Assembly (NCBI RefSeq): GCF_000189755.2
Contig: NZ_KI912183.1
Coordinates: forward strand, 1,552,257 to 1,616,256
DNA from: Desulfotomaculum nigrificans DSM 574
Lineage (GTDB): Bacteria; Bacillota; Desulfotomaculia; Desulfotomaculales; Desulfotomaculaceae
Direction: 5' to 3'
Length of the DNA: 64,000 nucleotides
The position numbers were made by a program, and so were the translations under genes. How positions within the stretch are numbered: the first letter of the stretch is position 1; every line of letters begins with the position of its first letter. This document shows, in pieces, positions 2,572-58,522 of this stretch. The notes beneath the pieces were generated by a model. The model made no database searches, was not told the DNA's origin, and worked only from the letters and a program-made list of their open reading frames with translations.

Positions 2572-3570
2572 TTAACTTATCTTTCTAAACAAAAACTTGC
2601 ACCCGGCTACAGCGGCATCATCTGCGCCTTTGAATTTTTTGTACCAAAGGGCTTCACATAACCGCCTGCCGGTTCCGGCTACCGCCTTCCGAAATTCTTC
2701 GCAGGCTCTGCGGACGTGCAGGTTGGTATACTTGTCCTGGTCAAAGGCCTCCACTACTTCGTGATCAGGGAAATCACGCTGGAGGACTTCTACTGCTTCT
2801 GACCACGTATTAGCGCTTACGGTACCCAGTACCACAGCGCCGATCTTTTGACTGAGGATGGTAGCCTTTAAGGCCCCTTCCGTTACCCAGATTCGGCTGT
2901 CCTTTATCACTTGCGGCCTGGCCACATGTACCGGAACTCCGGAACAGGCTCCCGATTGTTTATTTCCCGAACTAAATATCTGGTATTTTCTCCTCTCTAC
3001 ATGTTTGTCCAGCCTGATCTGCAGGGCTTGGATTTTCCCCGTGCTGTTCAGGATGGGAAATACAAACCCGGGAGAGTAGTTGAAACACCAGTAATACCCG
3101 TTACCTTTTTTATTAGGGGCCTGGTAGAACCCAGGAACTCCTTTCAGGTTATGACCCATATTTATGAGTCGCTGGCACACTTCCCAAGGCTTTATGCCGG
3201 TGAGTGACCGAAAGCCTGCTTTCTCGACTTCTTCAACCGTTAAGCCGCGGCGTTTTAGCTCTTTGATGTGGTGGTATTCCAGGGACAGGAGGTCCAACAT
3301 AGACCTGTATACCCGGTCGCACACTTCAATTGGAGCTTTTGCAGCAGCTCTTTCTACCCTGTCTACGGGCCGGTAATATATCGGTGTAGCAGTCAGCTTA
3401 TGCAGCCAGCCGCCCATTTTACCCGATACCGGGTGGTTGCTCTCAATGCGCATGCAGATAGCTATGCGGTCGTTGAAAGAACACCAGTCGGTTTTGCCGC
3501 AGATGGGGCAGGGCTGATGCCGATTCACCCGTTGTAACGGTTGGTTTACATACTTTTTGGCATAAGTCAT
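2572..3570 (-). CDS. Toprim-domain primase-like protein (DUF3854 type)
   Basis: A 332-residue protein. The N-terminus has Cys motifs (CPICGKTDWC near residue 21, then a further Cys) resembling the zinc-binding domain of DnaG-type primases. The C-terminal third has a Toprim-like core: VTEGALKATIL carries the conserved Glu, and VVEAFDQDKYTN carries the DxD acidic pair. This resembles DUF3854/Toprim proteins of phages and plasmids that prime or assist DNA synthesis. There is no separate helicase domain. AAAGGAGGTGAAG (3593-3606) is separated from ATG by a GGCGGC/GCCGCC hairpin (3577-3592), leaving six bases after it. Confidence 0.65.
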   Translation of the reverse strand: MTYAKKYVNQPLQRVNRHQPCPICGKTDWCSFNDRIAICMRIESNHPVSGKMGGWLHKLTATPIYYRPVDRVERAAAKAPIEVCDRVYRSMLDLLSLEYHHIKELKRRGLTVEEVEKAGFRSLTGIKPWEVCQRLINMGHNLKGVPGFYQAPNKKGNGYYWCFNYSPGFVFPILNSTGKIQALQIRLDKHVERRKYQIFSSGNKQSGACSGVPVHVARPQVIKDSRIWVTEGALKATILSQKIGAVVLGTVSANTWSEAVEVLQRDFPDHEVVEAFDQDKYTNLHVRRACEEFRKAVAGTGRRLCEALWYKKFKGADDAAVAGCKFLFRKIS

Positions 3571-6885: not shown

Positions 6886-6980
6886 TCCTAATTTCTCCTT
6901 TCATATCCCGGCACGCTCCTTTCTAGATATAAAGCGCCCGGGGTGTCCCGCAGGCGCTGTTTTACAACGCCCACGGGGCA

Positions 6981-7054
6981 GAAAAAACGAAAAAAAGACA
7001 CACTAACAGAACAAGCCGTCTTTCTACGCTTGTTTTATCTGCCAAAGTGTCTTT
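6981..7054 (-). terminator. Intrinsic terminator of the large structured RNA
   Basis: On the minus strand AAAGACACT...ACAAGC pairs with GCTTGT...AGTGTGTCTTT in a long interrupted stem (about 6996-7054) followed by TTTTTTTCGTTTTTT. This would end a transcript coming from 7707. Confidence 0.6.
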
Positions 7055-7707
7055 CTCAATCTTATAAATACCTTCTATTTACTTTTCCTTTTAGCTTGCG
7101 CTAAAAATTACCTTTCAAAAGCTCATAGTTTATATACTTTCAACATCTTACCTAAGGTAAAAAACTTTCCTTAGGCCACAACTTTTCAGGATAGGTTGTT
7201 CCTATCAGATGAAGGTGAAAAAAGTCATACTACACCTATCCTCAAACGGGACCTTTCTCGTAACACCGCCTGGAGCAGCCCGCCCTTCCAGTGTTTGCGG
7301 TGCTTAGGGCAGCTTGTTTTAACGGTCCTGCCTTAGGTGCATACCCCGTCGAGAGCCCACCTCGCCTGCACCAACCTGTTAAAGGTTTTCAGTCCCGAGA
7401 CCTGTTCTAGCCGGTCCCTGCCAGGTTTTGCTTTGCTCATCGCCACACAAAACCATGTTGCCCATCCTATCGTGCGGGTCATGACGTCCGGTTTTGCTCT
7501 TCGCCACCCCGGATTTCACAGCTTGCTCTTCGCCTCACTGTGCGCTCCTAAGGATTCCCTTTGCTCTTCGCCACAGTCTTTCCTTAGGCCGAAAGTTCTC
7601 AACCCAATTTTTGCTCTTCGCCTAAAATCAGGTTCCAGTACTTCCAACTGTTTTAAGCTGGGTTCGCTTAAAAGAGAACTTTTTGAAAATAGGTTTATTT
7701 TGTACTT
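6985..7707 (-). ncRNA. Candidate large structured noncoding RNA with repeated loop motif
   Basis: A gene-free stretch of about 720 nt with a strong minus-strand promoter at one end and a strong terminator at the other. GGCGAAGAGCAA (once as GGCGATGAGCAA) occurs five times between 7430 and 7625. At least four copies sit in the apical loop of a hairpin whose stems differ in sequence (CACAG/CTGTG, TCCGG/CCGGA, GGTTTTG/CAAAACC, CCTGATTTT/AAATTGGG with wobbles); a fifth lies within CCTAAGGA/TCCTTAGG. An outer helix AAAGTTCTC/GAGAACTTT closes the first. Different stems with a constant loop point to RNA structure. Size and design recall ornate large bacterial RNAs such as GOLLD or ROOL, but I cannot match it to any family. 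Confidence 0.6.
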
Positions 7708-7713
7708 GATTTT

Positions 7714-7743
7714 AATATAATTTCATTTTCTTATTATTGTCAA
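7714..7743 (-). promoter_or_regulatory. Strong sigma-A promoter for the large RNA
   Basis: Minus strand: TTGACA at 7743-7738 and TATATT at 7719-7714 with an 18-bp spacer (17 if the -10 is read as TTATAT). The -35 box overlaps the stop codon of the upstream gene. Transcription would begin near 7707. Confidence 0.7.
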
Positions 7744-8513
7744 GTGTTTTCTTTGGCCTCTGACAAATCATACACTTTGTTGTTTTGGGATAGCTTTGCC
7801 AGGAAGAATTGAATCTGGTCTTTAATTCCTAGTTCATCGGCTATTTTGCTGTCGTAAAGTATGATCTTATCAACCACCTTATCTCTGAACAAACTTTGCA
7901 CCCCTTCATGCACAGCCCTTTCTACTATATCCTCAAAAAACAGCAGGTTATTGGGGATGTTTTTTATTCCTTCATTGGCCGCGTAAATATTTCTTCTGGC
8001 TATGGCGATACGCTCATCAAAGCTGGAGGTGTAGGGCAATTTTTGGTAGGGTATCCCTGCCTCCTGTAGGGCAAAAATGCCGCCGGTATCGACGATGTAA
8101 ATGCTGTCAAATACCTGATTCCATTTACTATCTACAGCTGTGTTGCGGCAAAATAACCCCCGGCTGATACCTTCTTCTAATAATCTGAATGTTTCTGTAT
8201 AGCTCAAACCTGTTAATCTAGTTAGCTGTCCTGCCGTTAATACCTGGAATTTGTTTAAGGTGATCAGCAGTTGTAAATGCATTTCATTCAAAAGCCAGGC
8301 TCGGAAAAAGCCGGCTATGGTTTCAGGATAACAGTACCCTGAAATTTCTGGTTTTTCATCTTCAGCTAACTTAAGCCCCAGATTGTACCGTTCTCCTTTG
8401 ACGTCGTGTATCTTTGAGCAGATATACCATGTTTCGTATTTGTTTCTTAAATGCACTTTTACCCACCTCGTCTTAAAATAAAAGCATCCTTTCATGTAAA
8501 GGGGTTCCGTCAT
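7740..8513 (-). CDS. Winged-helix protein, possibly replication-relaxation type
   Basis: 257 residues. A central segment, FQVLTAGQLTRLTGLSYTETFRLLEEGISRGLF, has the spacing of a winged helix-turn-helix, and the downstream region is alpha/beta. The pattern resembles Replic_Relax-type proteins carried by Firmicute conjugative elements, but I am not certain. It overlaps the upstream gene (stop at 8473) by 41 bp, suggesting translational coupling; there is no good binding site at either ATG 8513 or ATG 8495. Probable DNA-binding accessory or plasmid-processing protein. Confidence 0.5.
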   Translation of the reverse strand: MTEPLYMKGCFYFKTRWVKVHLRNKYETWYICSKIHDVKGERYNLGLKLAEDEKPEISGYCYPETIAGFFRAWLLNEMHLQLLITLNKFQVLTAGQLTRLTGLSYTETFRLLEEGISRGLFCRNTAVDSKWNQVFDSIYIVDTGGIFALQEAGIPYQKLPYTSSFDERIAIARRNIYAANEGIKNIPNNLLFFEDIVERAVHEGVQSLFRDKVVDKIILYDSKIADELGIKDQIQFFLAKLSQNNKVYDLSEAKENT

Positions 8514-9135
8514 TATCTAATAATCGCATGTCAGAGGTGATTTGTTTGGTTTGTTTGGTTCCAGCCATTATTGTTTTTGCTTCATCGTCTGTTGGGAAAA
8601 TTATTAATTGTGCATCCGGGTGTGGTTTTTCTCCTCGCCTGGGAGCATCAATAATCATTTTTGACAGTTCCTTGGTTGCCCGGTTGATATAGCTCATTTC
8701 CGCCATTACCGGAGTATCTTTGCTTCTGATAAGCCGCCAGCCAAAGCCCGGTACTTCTTTTTTAGCTAAAGCGTAAAAAAGACTTAAAGTAGCCAAACGG
8801 CATGCTTCATTAGGATCCTTGGGAGGCCTGGAATCCATGGTCATATAAATCTTAAAAATGGCATTGTTTCCTGATACACTAATCCAGCGGATCAATCCTG
8901 CATACCAGAGGCTGTTAATTGACTTATTAACTGCATATCTGTTTTCTTTTATAAGGTTTGCTAAAGACAGGCTCAATAAAAATTCCGCCTCCTCCATATA
9001 CTGCAGCACTTCAAAAGCACGTCCACCGAAGTCCTGGGATATTATTTCCACCGGCAGCCGGGACATGCTTACGGCTGTGCCGTAAGCAAAGGCGCTGTCC
9101 CGGGGTCTGGCTTCTTTTTTCTTTGTATCCTGCAT
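8473..9135 (-). CDS. Hypothetical DNA-binding-like protein
   Basis: 220 residues. Residues around 45-95 (LQYMEEAEFLLSLSLANL through NKSINSLWYAGLIRWI) look like a winged helix with recognition helix and wing. The C-terminus is mixed alpha/beta without a family match. The start has a good site, GGAAAGGAG, eight bases upstream. It is the first gene of a coupled pair with the 7740-8513 gene and lies downstream of the S1-domain gene, so the pair may act in DNA processing or regulation of transfer. Confidence 0.45.
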   Translation of the reverse strand: MQDTKKKEARPRDSAFAYGTAVSMSRLPVEIISQDFGGRAFEVLQYMEEAEFLLSLSLANLIKENRYAVNKSINSLWYAGLIRWISVSGNNAIFKIYMTMDSRPPKDPNEACRLATLSLFYALAKKEVPGFGWRLIRSKDTPVMAEMSYINRATKELSKMIIDAPRRGEKPHPDAQLIIFPTDDEAKTIMAGTKQTKQITSDMRLLDNDGTPLHERMLLF

Positions 9136-9155: not shown

Positions 9156-10049
9156 TTACTTGTACACGCCGGTGCTTATCTTTTCTCCCCTGCTGTTGCT
9201 GGCTTGTTTGCTGCGCCGTTTCCGGGAAAATAATTTTTGGCGACGGCGTTGCAGTGTTTTCTTAGGATCCCATTCCACCAGGTGCAGTTTTCTTTCTTTT
9301 ACATCAAAGGCTGCTACTTGGAATTCAAGTTTGTCACCCACTGCAAATGTATCCTTGGCCCGGTATGGGGCAATACCTATCAGACCAGGTTTTACTGCCA
9401 CAAAAGTTGTGGTATCTCTGGTACCCACGATGGTTCCAACCACCACTTCTCCTCTTTCAAACTGCCATTTAGCCCAGGGATCAATTGGTTCTACGGTAAT
9501 GGTTTTTTCTTGTTTGTCGACGCCTGTCACTATTACATTGACTACGCTTCCCATTCGGTACTGCACGTCCAGCGGTACGCCATCGGACAGCCGTGCCTTT
9601 TCAATGGGCAGTTTGACAATAACTCCTCCGCCGATATCCAGCAGGACACTGCGCTCCCCTACCGCCTTAACCACTGAACTGATTTCTTCTCCTTCTGTTA
9701 CTTGGTTTATCAGTTTGTTTAAAGCAATATTTACTGCTTCTTTGCGGCTGGCTGCCACCAGGTTTTCTTTCCTGTTTACTGCGATTACTTTGACAGAGAT
9801 AGGTTGTCCAATGAAGGTTTTCATAGATGTCTTGTCCGGCAGTCCTGATTCATCAGCCGGAACTAAACCGGTAATACCCGGTGCGTTATCAAATTCAATC
9901 TCCCAGGTTTCTCCCTGTCCGTTGATGTGGCGTACCCGAACCACTCTTGCTGTGATTATAGTGCCGTAAGTTTTAGCTTCGTAGATGGGACCCCATACGT
10001 CAAGTTCTCTTAATTCCAGTCCTTCAGGAGCCAGTTTAAAGTTTTGCAT
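9156..10049 (-). CDS. S1-domain RNA-binding protein
   Basis: 297 residues with about three S1-type OB repeats. The clearest is GEVVVGTIVGTRDTTTFVAVKPGLIGIAPYR with FAVGDKLEFQVAAFDVKERKLHL after it; two earlier repeats start near residues 28 and 120. The C-terminal tail is strongly basic (QRRRQKLFSRKRRSKQ), likely to strengthen nucleic-acid binding. Plasmid relatives of ribosomal protein S1 are uncommon. The gene lies just after the VirD4 gene and an intrinsic terminator, with about 30 bp between the terminator T-run and ATG. An RNA chaperone or translation modulator is an inference. Confidence 0.65.
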   Translation of the reverse strand: MQNFKLAPEGLELRELDVWGPIYEAKTYGTIITARVVRVRHINGQGETWEIEFDNAPGITGLVPADESGLPDKTSMKTFIGQPISVKVIAVNRKENLVAASRKEAVNIALNKLINQVTEGEEISSVVKAVGERSVLLDIGGGVIVKLPIEKARLSDGVPLDVQYRMGSVVNVIVTGVDKQEKTITVEPIDPWAKWQFERGEVVVGTIVGTRDTTTFVAVKPGLIGIAPYRAKDTFAVGDKLEFQVAAFDVKERKLHLVEWDPKKTLQRRRQKLFSRKRRSKQASNSRGEKISTGVYK

Positions 10050-10109: not shown

Positions 10110-12380
10110 TTACCAAGGAACGTTATTTTTCTTTGGAGTATCTTTTGTATCAACAATAAAGTCTTCAATATCGCTGCCGGGATGATCTGTTCTAACTGTT
10201 TCTCCAGCATTTTCTTGTTTTTGTTGATCATCCAAAGCAGCTGTCTGTGTTGTTGTAGCTACTTGACAGCTATATTGGTCATGTTGCCTATTTTGTTGAT
10301 TAAAACTTACCTTTTCAGCAGTTTTCTTTTGGGAGAATAATAATGGTTCTGAGAACGAATTTGTTTGTTTCTCATCAAAGGAATTTTCTCCGTCAACGTC
10401 CGGTTTGCTGACATTAAAATTCCTGGCCGGTATAAATTCGTTAACTGGCAGCATACCGCATGAAATAATTTCTTTAGCTTGTGGCAGTTCTGTCCAGCCA
10501 ATTTTTCTTAGAAAGGCCGGATAGCTCCACTGTAAAAGGGCAATGCAGTCTTTGGGACCAATCCTTAGTATTTCGCTCACGGTCATTAATGGCCGTTCTA
10601 TTATCGTTCGTGTTTTCTTCTTTAACTCAAAGACATGTTTTATTGGGACTGTTGTATCTTCACTGGTATGCTCGGCTTCCACTGCTGCGCTGCCAAGTTT
10701 TTCGCTGAACATTTTGGCCAGTTCACTGTCTGCCGGGGCTATACCTATCAGCATTACTGTCGGGCAGTTGCCCAGGATGGTTTTTGCTTCTTGGACACCG
10801 TAGACGTATTCCAACTGGGAAGGGGTTTGCAGGATCATTTGTATGTGAATCCCTTTACTCCTGGCAGTTGAAATAATTTCCGGCAGGCCCGGTATCATAC
10901 CGACATTGGCCATTTCATCCCAAATGTTGCGGACTTTGACCGGCAGTGTTTGTCCGGGACTATTAAATGCCAATTTATCCAGTCTTTTAAAGAGGAATTT
11001 ATAGAATATGGATAAAATTGGCCTTAAATAGACGCCTTCGCCGCTGGTAGGAATGATCAGGAATAGAGCTGTTTTCTTCTTGCCAATCTCATCAAGTTTT
11101 ATTTCTTGTTCTGAAAGTAGTGCGGCCAGTGGGTCGGTGGTCAGGTTTTTTAATACTGCAGTGAGGTTTGATTGGGCATATCCATAGTTTTCTTTTACGA
11201 CACCGCGCCAGCGTTCATAGATGGTGGAGCTGATTTTCCCGGCTTTATATGCGTCTCTGAAACGAACCTCTAGTTTTTCTGCCGGCCAGGCAGATAAGGT
11301 CATAATGGATCGCATATGCTGCTGTTCTATGGGAAAGTCGCCTTTCAGGAGGCCGATGAAGGCCTCCATTAGTTCCATAGCTTTTAACATGAAATATGAT
11401 TTACTGTCGCTGGCGGCATTTCGGGATAAGGTATCTACCATTTCTGATATTTCAGCATCGTTCTCACATTCAAGAACAGGGTTCCAGCGGTGGCTGTGTT
11501 CTGGTGTCATAAAGTTTAACGCCCATACATTTTCGTATCCCTTCTTTTTAAGCCATTTGGCAAAGGTTGTAAATAGTTCTCCTTTGGGGTCAATGACTAC
11601 CAGGGATTGTCCCTCGGCGGCGGCTGCCACAATATTGCTGGAAACAAAGCTGAAGGATTTACCTGATCCAGTTCCGCCGTAGGCAATGCAGTGAGGCGCC
11701 GTTTTGGGTGTGTTTTTCAGTACTGTAGGCATTTTTTCAAAATTAACCCGGACAATTTTCCCTTCCAGTTCGCCAATCAGGTTGCCGCCGGGAAATTTTA
11801 TTTTATTTCCCGGGTTGTTTTCCGGTGACACCGGCGGCCCGAATTCACAGAAGCTTTTAAGGTCTTTTAATGACGCCCATCGTGATGTACCATAGGCTGA
11901 GTTGTTAACGATTTTAAGGCCGTGTATCATGTTAGAGTTGTTTTTGTTTTGTTTGTGTTTTCTCAGAAATATTACTCCTGCTGCCACAGGGATTGTTAAA
12001 AATAAATTTAACCACCGCCAGATGTTCCGCACGTCCGGGTGGATTAATTCTCCATCCGGTTTTTTTAGCCAAGCTAATCCCGTTTGCACAGGGTGTTCTA
12101 AAACATATGGCATCATTTTACTGTGAGCTTTGGCTGCCGCTATTTCTTCCGGTGAAGCCAGAACATTAAAGGCCTTCATACTCCAGCTGATATCATGGAT
12201 GAAAGCCGCCAGGCTGCCTATGGCCCACACGTCTGCGATATAGAGAAGAGGTATGGCCACCGGCAGCCCGGCTGTGATGAGTACGGCTTTTTTATGTTTC
12301 TTTACCCAGGGCGGCAGTTCTATGTCACGGGCAGCTTTGATTGTTTTTAAGGCAGGCTTAAGTTTATCCGGCAGTCTCAA
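10110..12380 (-). CDS. virD4: VirD4/TraG-type conjugation coupling protein
   Basis: A 756-residue inner-membrane ATPase that brings the relaxase-DNA complex to the transfer channel. Two membrane segments lie near residues 33-60 and 121-140. The Walker A motif GGTGSGKS is at about 235-242, followed by VVIDPKGE; the Walker B region is VRNIWDEMANVG, and STARSKGIHIQMILQTPSQL is the typical sensor region. The C-terminal 150 residues are variable and polar, possibly for substrate recognition. TTG 12380 is supported by GAAGGTG six bases upstream, and the gene overlaps the AbrB-like gene by 17 bp. Confidence 0.9.
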   Translation of the reverse strand: MRLPDKLKPALKTIKAARDIELPPWVKKHKKAVLITAGLPVAIPLLYIADVWAIGSLAAFIHDISWSMKAFNVLASPEEIAAAKAHSKMMPYVLEHPVQTGLAWLKKPDGELIHPDVRNIWRWLNLFLTIPVAAGVIFLRKHKQNKNNSNMIHGLKIVNNSAYGTSRWASLKDLKSFCEFGPPVSPENNPGNKIKFPGGNLIGELEGKIVRVNFEKMPTVLKNTPKTAPHCIAYGGTGSGKSFSFVSSNIVAAAAEGQSLVVIDPKGELFTTFAKWLKKKGYENVWALNFMTPEHSHRWNPVLECENDAEISEMVDTLSRNAASDSKSYFMLKAMELMEAFIGLLKGDFPIEQQHMRSIMTLSAWPAEKLEVRFRDAYKAGKISSTIYERWRGVVKENYGYAQSNLTAVLKNLTTDPLAALLSEQEIKLDEIGKKKTALFLIIPTSGEGVYLRPILSIFYKFLFKRLDKLAFNSPGQTLPVKVRNIWDEMANVGMIPGLPEIISTARSKGIHIQMILQTPSQLEYVYGVQEAKTILGNCPTVMLIGIAPADSELAKMFSEKLGSAAVEAEHTSEDTTVPIKHVFELKKKTRTIIERPLMTVSEILRIGPKDCIALLQWSYPAFLRKIGWTELPQAKEIISCGMLPVNEFIPARNFNVSKPDVDGENSFDEKQTNSFSEPLLFSQKKTAEKVSFNQQNRQHDQYSCQVATTTQTAALDDQQKQENAGETVRTDHPGSDIEDFIVDTKDTPKKNNVPW

Positions 12381-47055: not shown

Positions 47056-47077
47056 CTTAACTAATCTCCCACAAAAA

Positions 47078-49257
47078 TAGAGTAGGGAAACCAGTTTCCT
47101 GGCTTCCCCCTCATCAAACCGTACGTGCCCTACTAAGGCATACGGCTTACCAAGTGTGATTTGACATTGTCAGGTATATTTCGCCATTCTTTGAGCGTAC
47201 CGCATTTTACGAATCAGGTCCGGAGTATAATACTCCCGGCCTTTTTCTTTTGCCCTCTGTATTCTGCGTTCCAGTTTTGTCTTGGCCTTTTTCGTTATAC
47301 GCTGGATGTATTGTTCTAAGGTGTAGCCAAATTGCTTGCTGTAGTAGAGCCACATAGAGGGAATTAGTCCTATGCGAGCGAAGAACTCGTTATTCCATTT
47401 GGTTTTCATGATGTGCCCTTTTCTTTGTGTCGGATGGTTATGGATCATTGCCACCCTTAATCGTTGTCGGGTGTAAGCATCAATGGCTTCCAATTCTTTG
47501 CCGAAGGAATTATGAAAACAGCGGCTCTTTTGCCCGTACTTCTCATTCTCTTTAATCGCCTGATAGACAGTAAGAAAGAAATTGATTTTGCCCCGTATTA
47601 CCGGGTTCACCTGCTCCAGCCATTTCTCTTTGTTTAATGTCAGGGTTTTTCTTGTCTTGGCTTTTATCTTAGCTTTAAAATCTTTAAGATTGGCATCGGT
47701 AGGCCTTACAATGAAATACGCCTGACCATCCTTTTTGCGCTCTCTCCAATGTTTAAAGCTAAATCCAACGAAATTAAAGTCATCCTTGTCAAAGTCCACG
47801 AATCGTGTCTTTTCTATGGAGACTTCTAATCCTAACTCATCTAGGGTTGTTTTGGCTACTTCAGCTGCTCTCTCAATATCTTCTTTACTTTTGGCGAACA
47901 AGAGAAAATCATCGGCATACCTGACAAACCGTACCCCATGTTCTTCCAGCGTCCAGTCCAATTCGTTGAGATACAGATTTGCCAGCAAAGGACTGATGAC
48001 GCCGCCCTGAGGAGTGCCGGAATCTGTAGGATGGAATTTGCCTTCTTCCATGTATCCGGCTTTGAGCCAAGCCCATATCATGTCTAGTACTGTTCCGTCT
48101 GCGATATATTTGGTAAGCACTTTCATCAGCTTTTTGTGCGGGATATTATCAAAGAAGCCCTTGATGTCACAGTCGTAAATATGATTGTATCCCGTTTCGA
48201 TGTTCCACAAAATTATCTGCATCACTCGTTTGATACCCAGGTTAGGCCGGTAGCCACAAGACCACTTGTGGAATATGTGCTCTTCGCATTTGGGGCTGAG
48301 TACATTGACGATGGCTTGCTGTACAATTCTATCCTCAATGTTGGGTATACCCAGCGGGCGCAGTTTGCCGTTCTTCTTGGGTATGTATTGTCGGCGCACT
48401 GCTGTCGGTTTGTATGTCTTGGTTCTGAGCCTCTGTAATAAGTCTTCTATTTTCTCTTCCTCGTGTTTCTTGAAGCTTTTGATGGTTTCACCGTCTATAC
48501 CACCGGCTCCACCGTTTTCCTCAACCTTCCGCCATGCTGCCATAAGTTTCCGGTCGAATAGGATTTGTCCGTAAATGCTATGCCACTTGAGTTTGAGTTC
48601 CTTGTTCAACGTCTTATTCCTTACCTTTCTCGTGTCCATCCGGTTCGTTTCTACCGCAGTAACGTCCCCGTTTTCATTACACGTGAGTCCAGTTGGAGCC
48701 ACACAGGTCGGCACCCCTTCCGTTCAGTTGCAGTTTGGTCTGCAGCTTACTTCCGTACTTTGAGGCCGTCTGACTTCTCCATCCGTGGCAGCAACTTCAG
48801 CATAGCCTTATATGCTACCACCCTTTGCAGGCTTGGATGGAGATCTCACAGGGTCATCTCACCTTCCCTCTTGGCATACCGAACACCATCACTTGACAAG
48901 CTACCTCCTACCCGGCTGGCTCATTTGAGTAGGTGTCACCTTTTCCGGTGGGCTTCCCGTTTTCTTCGCACAGTCGCCAACTTGCCCAGCCGCTGTGTTT
49001 CACGCTCTCGCATTTCGGTCTGCCAAGCCGCTTGTGGGCCTCTCGGCTTCCACGTCTCCTTCAGACAGCACCTCACGATGCTGCCCTAGACTAAGCTTCC
49101 TGGTTCGCGCCAGCACTCCCAGGGGAGGACTTTCACCTCCGAGAACCCCCATGCTTCCAGACTCCCGGCCCGTTTTACTGCCGTATCGTGGCCGCTGTCT
49201 TTATAACATGAGTTTGTCCCGAACTATTAACGGGACAGGTGCGACTGCCTGTCGCAC
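47078..49257 (-). mobile_element. Group IIC intron
   Basis: On the minus strand the intron begins GTGCGAC right after the T-run of a terminator (49258-49282), the favoured target of group IIC introns. The 3' part has a domain V-like hairpin, AGCCGTATGCC...AGGGCACGTACGGTT (about 47115-47148), and a domain VI stem before the end near 47078. The reverse transcriptase lies inside. About 2.2 kb; the 3' border is accurate to a few bases. Confidence 0.8.
47170..48714 (-). CDS. ltrA: Group II intron reverse transcriptase/maturase
   Basis: Up to 514 residues. RT blocks are in order: GGIDGETIKSF, RRQYIPKKNGKLRPLGIPN, CDIKGFFDNIPHKKLM, GTPQGGVISPLLANLYLNEL and the catalytic RFVRYADDFLLF. Maturase X domain follows. 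No HNH endonuclease domain at the C-terminus, consistent with class C. The true start is probably ATG 48639 (MDTRKVRNKTLNKEL). No disabling mutation seen. Confidence 0.92.
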   Translation of the reverse strand: MPTCVAPTGLTCNENGDVTAVETNRMDTRKVRNKTLNKELKLKWHSIYGQILFDRKLMAAWRKVEENGGAGGIDGETIKSFKKHEEEKIEDLLQRLRTKTYKPTAVRRQYIPKKNGKLRPLGIPNIEDRIVQQAIVNVLSPKCEEHIFHKWSCGYRPNLGIKRVMQIILWNIETGYNHIYDCDIKGFFDNIPHKKLMKVLTKYIADGTVLDMIWAWLKAGYMEEGKFHPTDSGTPQGGVISPLLANLYLNELDWTLEEHGVRFVRYADDFLLFAKSKEDIERAAEVAKTTLDELGLEVSIEKTRFVDFDKDDFNFVGFSFKHWRERKKDGQAYFIVRPTDANLKDFKAKIKAKTRKTLTLNKEKWLEQVNPVIRGKINFFLTVYQAIKENEKYGQKSRCFHNSFGKELEAIDAYTRQRLRVAMIHNHPTQRKGHIMKTKWNNEFFARIGLIPSMWLYYSKQFGYTLEQYIQRITKKAKTKLERRIQRAKEKGREYYTPDLIRKMRYAQRMAKYT

Positions 49258-57218: not shown

Positions 57219-57440
57219 GACGTCCTCCACTGACTAGAAGTCAGAGGATTCCCCGGGAATTACGTGTCCTTGCGGGTTCACGCCCGGTTTCGGTTGGGTT
57301 TCGCTTCAACAGGTACATTTCTGCCCCGCCTCATCAACTCCCCCTCTGGGCCGCGCCAATCGGCCCGCCCCCAACGGTTCAAATGACCACCTGCATCCCA
57401 CCCATTGAGGAAGCCACCCTGTGACCAGGTGACCGGAATT
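57219..57440 (-). ncRNA. Putative omega-RNA and right end of the tnpB element
   Basis: About 220 nt of GC-rich sequence after the tnpB stop, ending GAATCCTC, hairpin CTGACT/AGTCAG, GGAGGACGTCA. This is the usual place for the TnpB guide RNA, whose guide would be the flanking bases past 57219. The same end layout recurs at 15261-15292. Confidence 0.5.
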
Positions 57441-58522
57441 TAGCCTGCCAACCCGCTTATAGCCTGCGCTATATTATCGGCTCCATTTACGTCTATGTGC
57501 TTTATTTTCTTGCACCGCTTGCACGTAAACCACCGGCCTTTCGGTCGGCTCTTGTGAACGTGCCCGCACCGGCTGCATGTCAGACTGGTTAGGTCAGGAT
57601 TGACCAACTCCACCTGGATACCCGCCAGGGCCGCCTTATACTCAATGAACTGCCAAAGCTGGTAATAGGCCCAACTGTGCAAACTCCTGCCGCGGTCTTT
57701 CCGCTGTCCTTTCCTCTGGCTCTTCGTCCACCTTACTCCAGTTAAATCTTCTAGCCGGATTTTCGTTACTCCGTGCAGTTTGGCAAACTCGATCACTGCG
57801 TGGCTGATTTTGTGGTTTATGTCTGTTACCCAGCGGTGCTCTTTGTCGCCCAACTTCACCAATGCTTTGTGTGCCCCGGCTTTTTGGAGTTTTCTGCGGA
57901 GTTCCGCATAGTGCCTCCGGATATATGCCAGCTCACCACCGGAAAAGAACAGCGTCTGACCGTTTACGCTCGCTACCAGCAGGTCAATCAGCCCCAGGTC
58001 TATGCCCATATTTTTTTCCGTCCTTTTGGTCTGCTCTACGGTTAGGACTATGCTCAGATGAATGTACCAGTCTTTGCCACATCTGATAAGCCGTGCAGAA
58101 CCCTGTTTGACTTCGCCGGACAGCAGCAGGTTTAAGTATTTTTCCTGGTATGATTGAGCAACTATGGGCACTCCAACCCTTCTCTCCAGCGTAGGGAAAG
58201 ATGCTTTCCACACGGCTCCGCCGTCTTTGGAAACCTCTTTCTCCACTTTGAAGTTTTGGTTATTGAAGTTAGGCCATAGGCGTTTAAACCGCTTGACTTT
58301 CTTTTTTGATTTAATGTCCCTGATAGCCTGGGCTAATACTGCCGATGGCAAAGGCTTTGAATATTCTTTAGCTTCTTTAGATGTCTTGGGTCGGTCTTTT
58401 TTGTCCAACTTCAGATAGTTGTTCGCAAATTCTGTTGTCCGGTCGGCCATTTCCTGATACATTTGCTTTTTTGCTTGCGTCGGCTGGTACAGCTTGATTT
58501 TGAGTGTGATTGTTTGTTCCAT
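57440..58522 (-). CDS. tnpB: TnpB RNA-guided endonuclease
   Basis: 360 residues. RuvC-like catalytic residues are present: Asp in NMGIDLGLIDLLV, Glu in IRLEDLTGVRW, Asp in KHIDVNGADNIAQAI. A four-Cys zinc finger (CSRCGH...CKRCKK) lies before the last. N-terminal helical domain intact. The protein therefore looks active. A little shorter than typical 380-400 residue TnpB. Confidence 0.9.
   Translation of the reverse strand: MEQTITLKIKLYQPTQAKKQMYQEMADRTTEFANNYLKLDKKDRPKTSKEAKEYSKPLPSAVLAQAIRDIKSKKKVKRFKRLWPNFNNQNFKVEKEVSKDGGAVWKASFPTLERRVGVPIVAQSYQEKYLNLLLSGEVKQGSARLIRCGKDWYIHLSIVLTVEQTKRTEKNMGIDLGLIDLLVASVNGQTLFFSGGELAYIRRHYAELRRKLQKAGAHKALVKLGDKEHRWVTDINHKISHAVIEFAKLHGVTKIRLEDLTGVRWTKSQRKGQRKDRGRSLHSWAYYQLWQFIEYKAALAGIQVELVNPDLTSLTCSRCGHVHKSRPKGRWFTCKRCKKIKHIDVNGADNIAQAISGLAG

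Follow-up and report, generated by a model that had tools for sequence, protein, structure and literature searches.

What is made from the roughly 720 nt that separate a promoter from a terminator, and hold no evident gene, within the 64,000-nt stretch of Desulfotomaculum nigrificans DSM 574 analysed here (the window)? The original prediction took this locus for an undescribed large structured RNA with five identical hairpin loops. A scan of the window for GGCGAWGAGCAA recovered the five predicted GGCGA(A/T)GAGCAA repeats exactly, all on the minus strand between 7433 and 7622 (7611-7622, 7561-7572, 7523-7534, 7494-7505 and 7433-7444). This is far above chance: 100 shuffled windows contained 0.04 copies on average and none of them contained five. 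Both proposed boundaries were confirmed, with about 720 nt between them. The sigma-70 promoter (7714-7743, minus strand; TTGACA at 7743-7738, TATATT at 7719-7714) has 11 of 12 consensus bases and an 18-nt spacer, and suggests a transcript start near 7707. At the other end lies a terminator hairpin with a U run (6993-7053, minus strand; -32.8 kcal/mol, z -5.0) and the conserved AGACACTTTGGCAGA strand; it is absent from the list of a simple terminator scan, though folding shows it. In keeping with the claimed absence of a gene, the ORF list has no minus-strand frame of at least 60 aa between 6886 and 7739; a 127-aa ORF overlaps the locus on the opposite strand (7337-7720).

The 726-nt minus strand folds with a z-score of -6.8, and none of 20 shuffled sequences folds as well. 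At least four copies had been expected in loops over unlike stems, and the minimum-energy fold places all five on hairpins with differing stem sequences. By a simple stem score the first and fifth copies exceed the 95% level obtained with shuffled flanks. Stems of 6 and 5 bp leave the third and fourth copies under it, and the second copy belongs to a larger hairpin, which this score does not register. Domain D1 (7594-7681, minus strand, as are all parts of the RNA) consists of a closing stem, a conserved GGAAG hairpin and the hairpin bearing the first constant tip, and corresponds to helices 2-5 of an alignment of the 5' hairpin region (A9), which show compensatory changes. Domain D2 (7547-7588) is an internal-loop hairpin with the second tip and forms helix 6 of A9, where both sides have changed in eight of nine pairs. 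Hairpins D3 (7517-7542) and D4 (7487-7513) carry the third and fourth tips; both are seen in the fold and by the stem score, and their outer stems are outside the A9 consensus structure. The conserved core (7257-7488), in which 11 helices were counted and which is described by the covariance models R1 and R2 below, contains hairpin P5 (7423-7454) with the fifth tip.

At the gathering score, no Rfam 15 family matches the RNA stretch or the relatives scanned, and up to an E-value of 10 the window stretch yields weak unrelated matches only. The original prediction noted a likeness to GOLLD and ROOL; it stands with regard to size and mobile habitat and fails at the level of family, as neither these two nor the Csr/Rsm families of Rfam match the window RNA. 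No paper on this RNA, termed type I below, was seen in listings of open-licence papers. Homologues share a common plan, namely a TTGACA promoter, D1, D2, D3, D4, the core with P5 and the terminator. In all 25 type I loci scanned, TTGAC[A/G] lies 16-18 nt from a -10-like box (exact TTGACA in 24), and by eye other loci have 3' ends similar to the terminator of the window RNA.

A blastn search of 113 genomes of the class gave matches in 19 genomes, several of them short and chance-like. R1, a model of the core built from seven sequences, detected five divergent loci beyond its seed (E 2.9e-14 to 2.1e-10) and new loci in G019 and G065, and did not pick up the RNAs of G066 and G048. With 14 loci in its seed, R2 matched G066 (E 1.9e-9) and further out-of-seed loci (E 9.7e-28 to 8e-15). 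In a phylum-wide sample of 398 genomes it matched eight; seven of these had not been in the seed (E 5.7e-42 to 2e-9), and six belong to other orders. Relatives of the S1-type protein c0, encoded near the RNA, occur in 38 of the 113 class genomes, and 15 such loci that had given no RNA match before were inspected, first ten and then five. Among the ten, R2 finds a type I RNA in G071, G036 and G026 and a type II RNA (see below) in G005; G112 was later recognised by eye as type II and used in model R3. The contigs of G009 and G070 stop ahead of the RNA site, G069 has c1 and no RNA in the remaining ~1.75 kb of its contig, and the S1 loci of G018 and G068 belong to other contexts. The further five include one type I RNA, in G067, and four loci without a match. 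In total, type I comprises 26 loci in 25 genomes of the phylum, the window included, and is present in at least 19 of the 113 class genomes, a lower bound given that R2 was run on part of the class only. Two sets of loci are near-identical (G318, G470, G451 and G208; G063b, G061 and G064).

No relative of the window RNA was found in plasmid and phage records by nucleotide search, and the conserved core string has no match in viral contigs. Among tip-pattern matches in viral contigs, L005-L007 look by eye like coding repeats and L008 like a short duplication between genes; an R2 search of 33 sources, these four and 29 pattern matches in genome contigs, gave nothing convincing (best E 0.18). Weak matches in G050, L071, L064 (8549 and 15674), the window (294), L087 (3363) and G005:C23 were not counted, nor was one in L154 at 10461 (E 5e-4), away from the RNA. 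As the latter about equals the G048 match in strength, weak R2 matches can be chance.

Homologues with compensatory changes in the stems were sought as one of the two tests that could refute the prediction, and were found in both the core and the 5' region. In the core alignment fitted to R1 (14 sequences), 93.4% of cells pair, compared with 73.9% in shuffles and 33-43% in slid controls, and both sides have changed in 34 of 48 pairs (22.2 in shuffles). The unfitted MAFFT alignment of seven core sequences gives 97.3% pairing versus 85.2% and both-side changes in 19 of 48 pairs versus 11.1; its count of further pair types was reached by 8 of 500 shuffles. In A9 (11 sequences, unfitted) the figures are 93.0% versus 76.1%, and 24 of 38 pairs versus 13.7. 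For the core and the 5' region the percentage paired, both-side changes and covariation score exceed all 500 shuffles and the slid controls. The window RNA is thus almost certainly a real structured RNA, as judged from these comparisons.

In the alignment fitted to the structure, G-U cells outnumber A-C cells by 59 to 8 on the transcribed strand; therefore, this strand looks to be the functional one. The ratio bears on whether the hairpins might act as single-stranded DNA during conjugation, as an origin or a single-strand promoter, and not as RNA. A coupling protein and, by eye, SSB-like and ArdC-like genes are encoded nearby, and transferred single strands could form the same hairpins. Given the promoter, the terminator and the excess of G-U over A-C, we consider this very improbable. 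The locus does belong to a conjugative element, as marked by a VirD4/TraG coupling protein (10110-12380, minus strand, by protein-family match), and is situated within a single contig of 3.05 Mb, not in the plasmid setting originally assumed. The homologous loci define a large structured RNA family of conjugative elements, outside Rfam 15, with an array of constant-tip hairpins. Elsewhere in the window a Group II intron RNA is matched by Rfam at 47077-48714, with a reverse-transcriptase-like ORF (47170-48714, by eye), and a TnpB-like ORF is seen by eye at 57440-58522.

The constant unit proved smaller than first described: it is the 9-nt tip GC-GNNRA-GC, and the sequence on either side of it differs from genome to genome. 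Across loci the clamp admits GU wobbles, and the loops include GAUGA, GAAGA, GAAAA, GAGGA, GUCGA, GACGA, GCUGA and others. Exactly five tips fit the pattern in 12 of 19 non-redundant RNAs; the others have four to seven. In 21 loci, the outer stems of 64 of 104 tips score above the 95% level set by shuffling their flanks, where about 5 would be expected. The stem test took 21 of 25 loci, the tip-likeness test 19 of 25 and the 5'-region alignment 11, the rest being near-identical or too different in length; the tips GTGGAAGC and GTGAAAGC were excluded from the first two because they are part of the conserved GGAAG hairpin. CsrB, CsrC and RsmZ similarly repeat one short loop element in hairpin loops (PMC7652899), and the repetition on unlike stems that characterises CsrB-type RNAs is found here, with 72 distinct stems among the 90 of at least 4 bp (21 loci). 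In contrast to these RNAs, the type I tip is GC-GNNRA-GC and not GGA, the conserved core is large, and the proposed partner is not CsrA.

The tip probably forms a GNRA-like pentaloop, judging by its consensus and its substitutions. The GC/GC clamp of D1 is replaced by CC/GG in G318 and by AC/GU in G044, with both sides changed. In G065, GNRA tetraloops cap D1-D4 (GUGA once, GAGA three times), and three of these four hairpins have lost the internal bulge; P5 keeps GAUGA. Such a replacement is expected if the pentaloop adopts a GNRA-like fold with one base extruded, and the tetraloops therefore fit this reading. A known case is the P22 boxB loop GACAA, a GNRA-like pentaloop whose looped-out base touches the N peptide (PMC12550061). 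Lambdoid nut/boxB sites have such GNRA-like pentaloop hairpins (PMC12550061) ahead of a terminator; type I RNAs may resemble them in the tip, judged by sequence only, and fit them in position, and differ in having four to seven tips each (19 RNAs) and a length of about 720 nt. The tips of a given RNA tend to resemble one another and to vary jointly: within-RNA tip identity is 0.528 versus 0.199 when shuffled (0 of 10000; 19 RNAs), and 0.542 versus 0.251 when hairpin position is kept (0 of 10000; 12 RNAs), where the shuffles ignore relatedness in both cases.

Upstream of the RNA and on the same strand are a topoisomerase-like gene (by eye), often a VirD4-like gene, c0, c1 and sometimes c6. In the window, c0 (297 aa, 9156-10049, minus strand) has an S1-type RNA-binding domain just below the Pfam cut-off, along with partial sub-threshold matches to ribosomal S1 models. 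The 257-aa protein c6 (7740-8513, minus strand), of unknown function, adjoins nine of 26 type I RNAs and has no detectable relationship to c1. The c1 protein (220 aa, 8473-9135, minus strand), the proposed partner of the tips, shows in profile and homology searches a weak similarity to winged-helix proteins of the MarR kind (PDB 2dbb, E 5.5e-4; MarR_2 in three of 18 members); single-sequence structure prediction gave no usable fold (pLDDT 34.8). Both c0 and c1 are present in 25 of 26 type I stretches fetched. The exception is G046, with c0 and c1 about 15 kb upstream of the RNA; this gap (L057, L193) is perhaps an insertion. In the 398-genome sample, all eight genomes with the RNA are among the ten with c1. 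In the class, c1 occurs in 23 genomes and the type I RNA in 19, the others being G009, G070, G069 and G024 (a distant relative). No c1 was found by search in viral contigs or plasmids. Relatives of the S1 protein were present in eight plasmid records, leading to L142-L144; none of the three has an R2 match, and L142 also lacks R3 and Rfam matches. On its own account, L142 (Brevibacillus marinus plasmid NZ_CP034542.1) has at 8350-8850 a hairpin-rich stretch with a terminator-like end in a similar gene order, behind topoisomerase, TraM-recognition, S1 and hypothetical genes.

The co-occurrence of c1 bears on the role of the tips. They might instead dock, as GNRA-like loops, into receptors in the same or other RNA copies and build a multimer of RNA only, in the manner of ROOL and GOLLD. 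The size, the mobile-element habitat, the ornate core and the GNRA-like tips that are alike within an RNA would all agree with such an assembly. With c1 accompanying the RNA, neither ROOL nor GOLLD matching in Rfam, and no receptor that changes with tip type noticed in an unsystematic look, we regard it as rather improbable. Of the three roles that had been suggested for the constant loop, namely protein binding, RNA binding and self-assembly, repeated protein binding is the best supported. On comparative grounds the tips probably bind a protein, and the chances that this protein is c1 are evenly balanced; given its likeness to DNA-binding winged helices, c1 may bind DNA alone.

Three pairs of genomes have a mosaic structure. 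In 60-nt windows, G062 and G065 are 93-100% identical from c0 to the start of c1, 60-93% over the remainder of c1, the promoter and D1-D2, 40% over D3-D4 and 88-100% from the core onward; the tips of D1-D4 differ, and identity drops as well (77-85%) farther upstream, where the topoisomerase-like gene ends. In this one pair c1 and D1-D4 have diverged jointly. Between G063b and G066, c0 has been replaced (35%), c1 is 80% identical, the tips are kept and the later core is divergent. In G342 and G318, c0, c1 and D1-D4 are 45-78% identical in most 100-nt windows; the core begins with 100 nt at 92%, followed by windows at 73 and 62%. Tips thus follow c1 and not c0 in two of the three pairs, G062/G065 and G063b/G066; both differ in the third. 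However, c1 identity is 65% between G006 and G002, whose tips differ, and 64% between G006 and G045, where most tips are alike, and these equal values give no support to strict co-evolution. Moreover, c1 adjoins the hairpins within the same element, and joint divergence and co-occurrence are partly expected from linkage and ancestry.

Model R3, built from three divergent RNAs, recovered its own three and additionally G094, G043b and G105; the six constitute type II. The evidence that links them to type I consists of weak matches, of R2 to G005 (E 1.5e-6) and G048 (E 2.4e-4) and of R3 to the type I RNA of G071 (E 1.9e-4), together with their location and neighbouring genes; at E 1, R2 does not match G112, G094 or G043b. 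Type II RNAs have no GNNRA array, and other loops are repeated instead, by eye: CCAGG three times in G094, CUAGG twice in G105, CAGGG twice in G005 and CUGCG/CCGCG in G043b. A constant-loop scan limited to clean stems of at least 6 bp found groups in two of 16 loci, G094 and G005; the remaining four type II loci and the two of type III escaped it and were read by eye. Block shuffles gave no groups for G094 and G005 and a few for G043b and G068. None of the six type II loci has c1; c0 and c6 are present in four, and two are without both. Type III, found at two loci, is a short three-hairpin stretch behind a distant c1 relative (E 7e-29), in L191 at about 2899-3075 and in L192 at about 1650-1890 on the reverse strand. 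Its hairpins read GC-UUGCGG-GC or a one-base variant and fold when taken singly; in the G025 stretch (z -4.1) not all three form, as the first two repeats pair mutually. Type III is possibly a minimal form of the RNA, and with two loci only it is a lead.

The first same-strand start with a ribosome site lies 30-100 nt past the terminator in 24 of 31 loci. In the others (G043, G044, G063a, G019, G026, G005 and G105) it is farther downstream, though in G019 and G026 the script skipped a nearer SSB start. A consensus scan of the same strand, which had no chance control, shows no promoter-like site between terminator and start in 25 of 31 loci. The genes behind the terminator, named partly by eye, encode SSB, MazF-like, ArdC-like, RadC-like and primase-like proteins; some group B loci have long opposite-strand ORFs there. 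In the window, a leader with GC-rich hairpins (6886-6992, minus strand) precedes the first downstream gene, and the promoter scan found no promoter in it. By eye, this leader is similar in many loci, and its GCGGGCG/CGCCCGC and GCGCCCG/CGGGCGC hairpins look mutually exclusive, like an attenuator. In group B (L065, L066, L068, L069 and L087) the sequence CCUAAGC(A/G)CCG...CGG(U/C)GUUA seems by eye to be repeated two to three times downstream of the core.

Transcripts from the RNA promoter or from preceding genes must cross the terminator to reach these genes, and for this reason readthrough control is proposed. The strong promoter would yield a noncoding RNA of about 720 nt with three parts: an array of hairpins (five in the window) capped by GC-GNNRA-GC, the conserved multi-helix core and the terminator. 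The tips would serve as binding sites for several copies of a single protein, for which c1, with its gene immediately upstream, is the likeliest candidate, and the loaded RNA would govern the genes behind the terminator by allowing polymerase to read through or not. Our leading, still tentative reading is hence a multivalent protein-docking RNA, probably bound by c1, that would control the genes past its terminator; it falls slightly short of an even chance. The control of downstream genes in cis, taken separately, is a possibility that we rate a little lower. Against the docking reading, type II RNAs retain constant loops although c1 is absent, and a large core would not be required in a simple docking array or antiterminator.

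Alternatively, the free terminated RNA could act in trans like CsrB and titrate c1 or another nucleic-acid-binding protein, its position ahead of the operon being synteny only. Such a sponge would have a strong promoter, its own terminator and repeated tips whose stems differ, all of which are seen here, and CsrB, with repeats of CAGGA(U/A/C)G in hairpin loops or single-stranded regions, competes for CsrA (PMC7652899). Four to seven tips are few for this purpose, however, and the gene starts 30-100 nt past the terminator are mostly without an evident promoter. The conserved core of about 230 nt is also unlike CsrB. We consider titration unlikely, though more plausible than an assembly of RNA only.

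A broader version of the docking reading would cover all three types. They may represent a new mobile-element riboregulator class of swappable cassettes, each combining an ornate core, an array of like tips and a cognate tip-binding protein, with tips that change together with the protein to make a private RNA-protein code for each element. The tip sets would be GNNRA with c1, CCAGG, CUAGG, CAGGG and similar in type II, and UUGCGG with the distant c1. This generalisation is tentative, and we hold it with somewhat less confidence than the docking reading itself.

To our knowledge, few large bacterial RNAs of unknown function have been described. OLE RNA is a large ornate RNA with protein partners; the type I RNA is likewise large and ornate with a possible protein partner, and differs in that it has no Rfam match and its proposed partner is winged-helix-like. 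GOLLD and ROOL are also large, ornate, noncoding, carried by mobile elements and of unknown function. Their genes are found in phages and prophages, frequently close to tRNA islands, and ROOL has no identified protein partner (PMC12286853). The type I RNA resides in a conjugative element beside c0 and c1 and has a constant-tip array, and the 64-kb window has no tRNA genes. Since the comparison indicates both a specific neighbour protein and a specific 9-nt tip, the role of the RNA is directly testable. The pattern of like tips on unlike stems may also help to find other multivalent RNAs. With this RNA, a family of conjugative elements gains a conserved noncoding component; if the cassette reading is true, each of these elements would run the genes behind its RNA by a private RNA-protein code.
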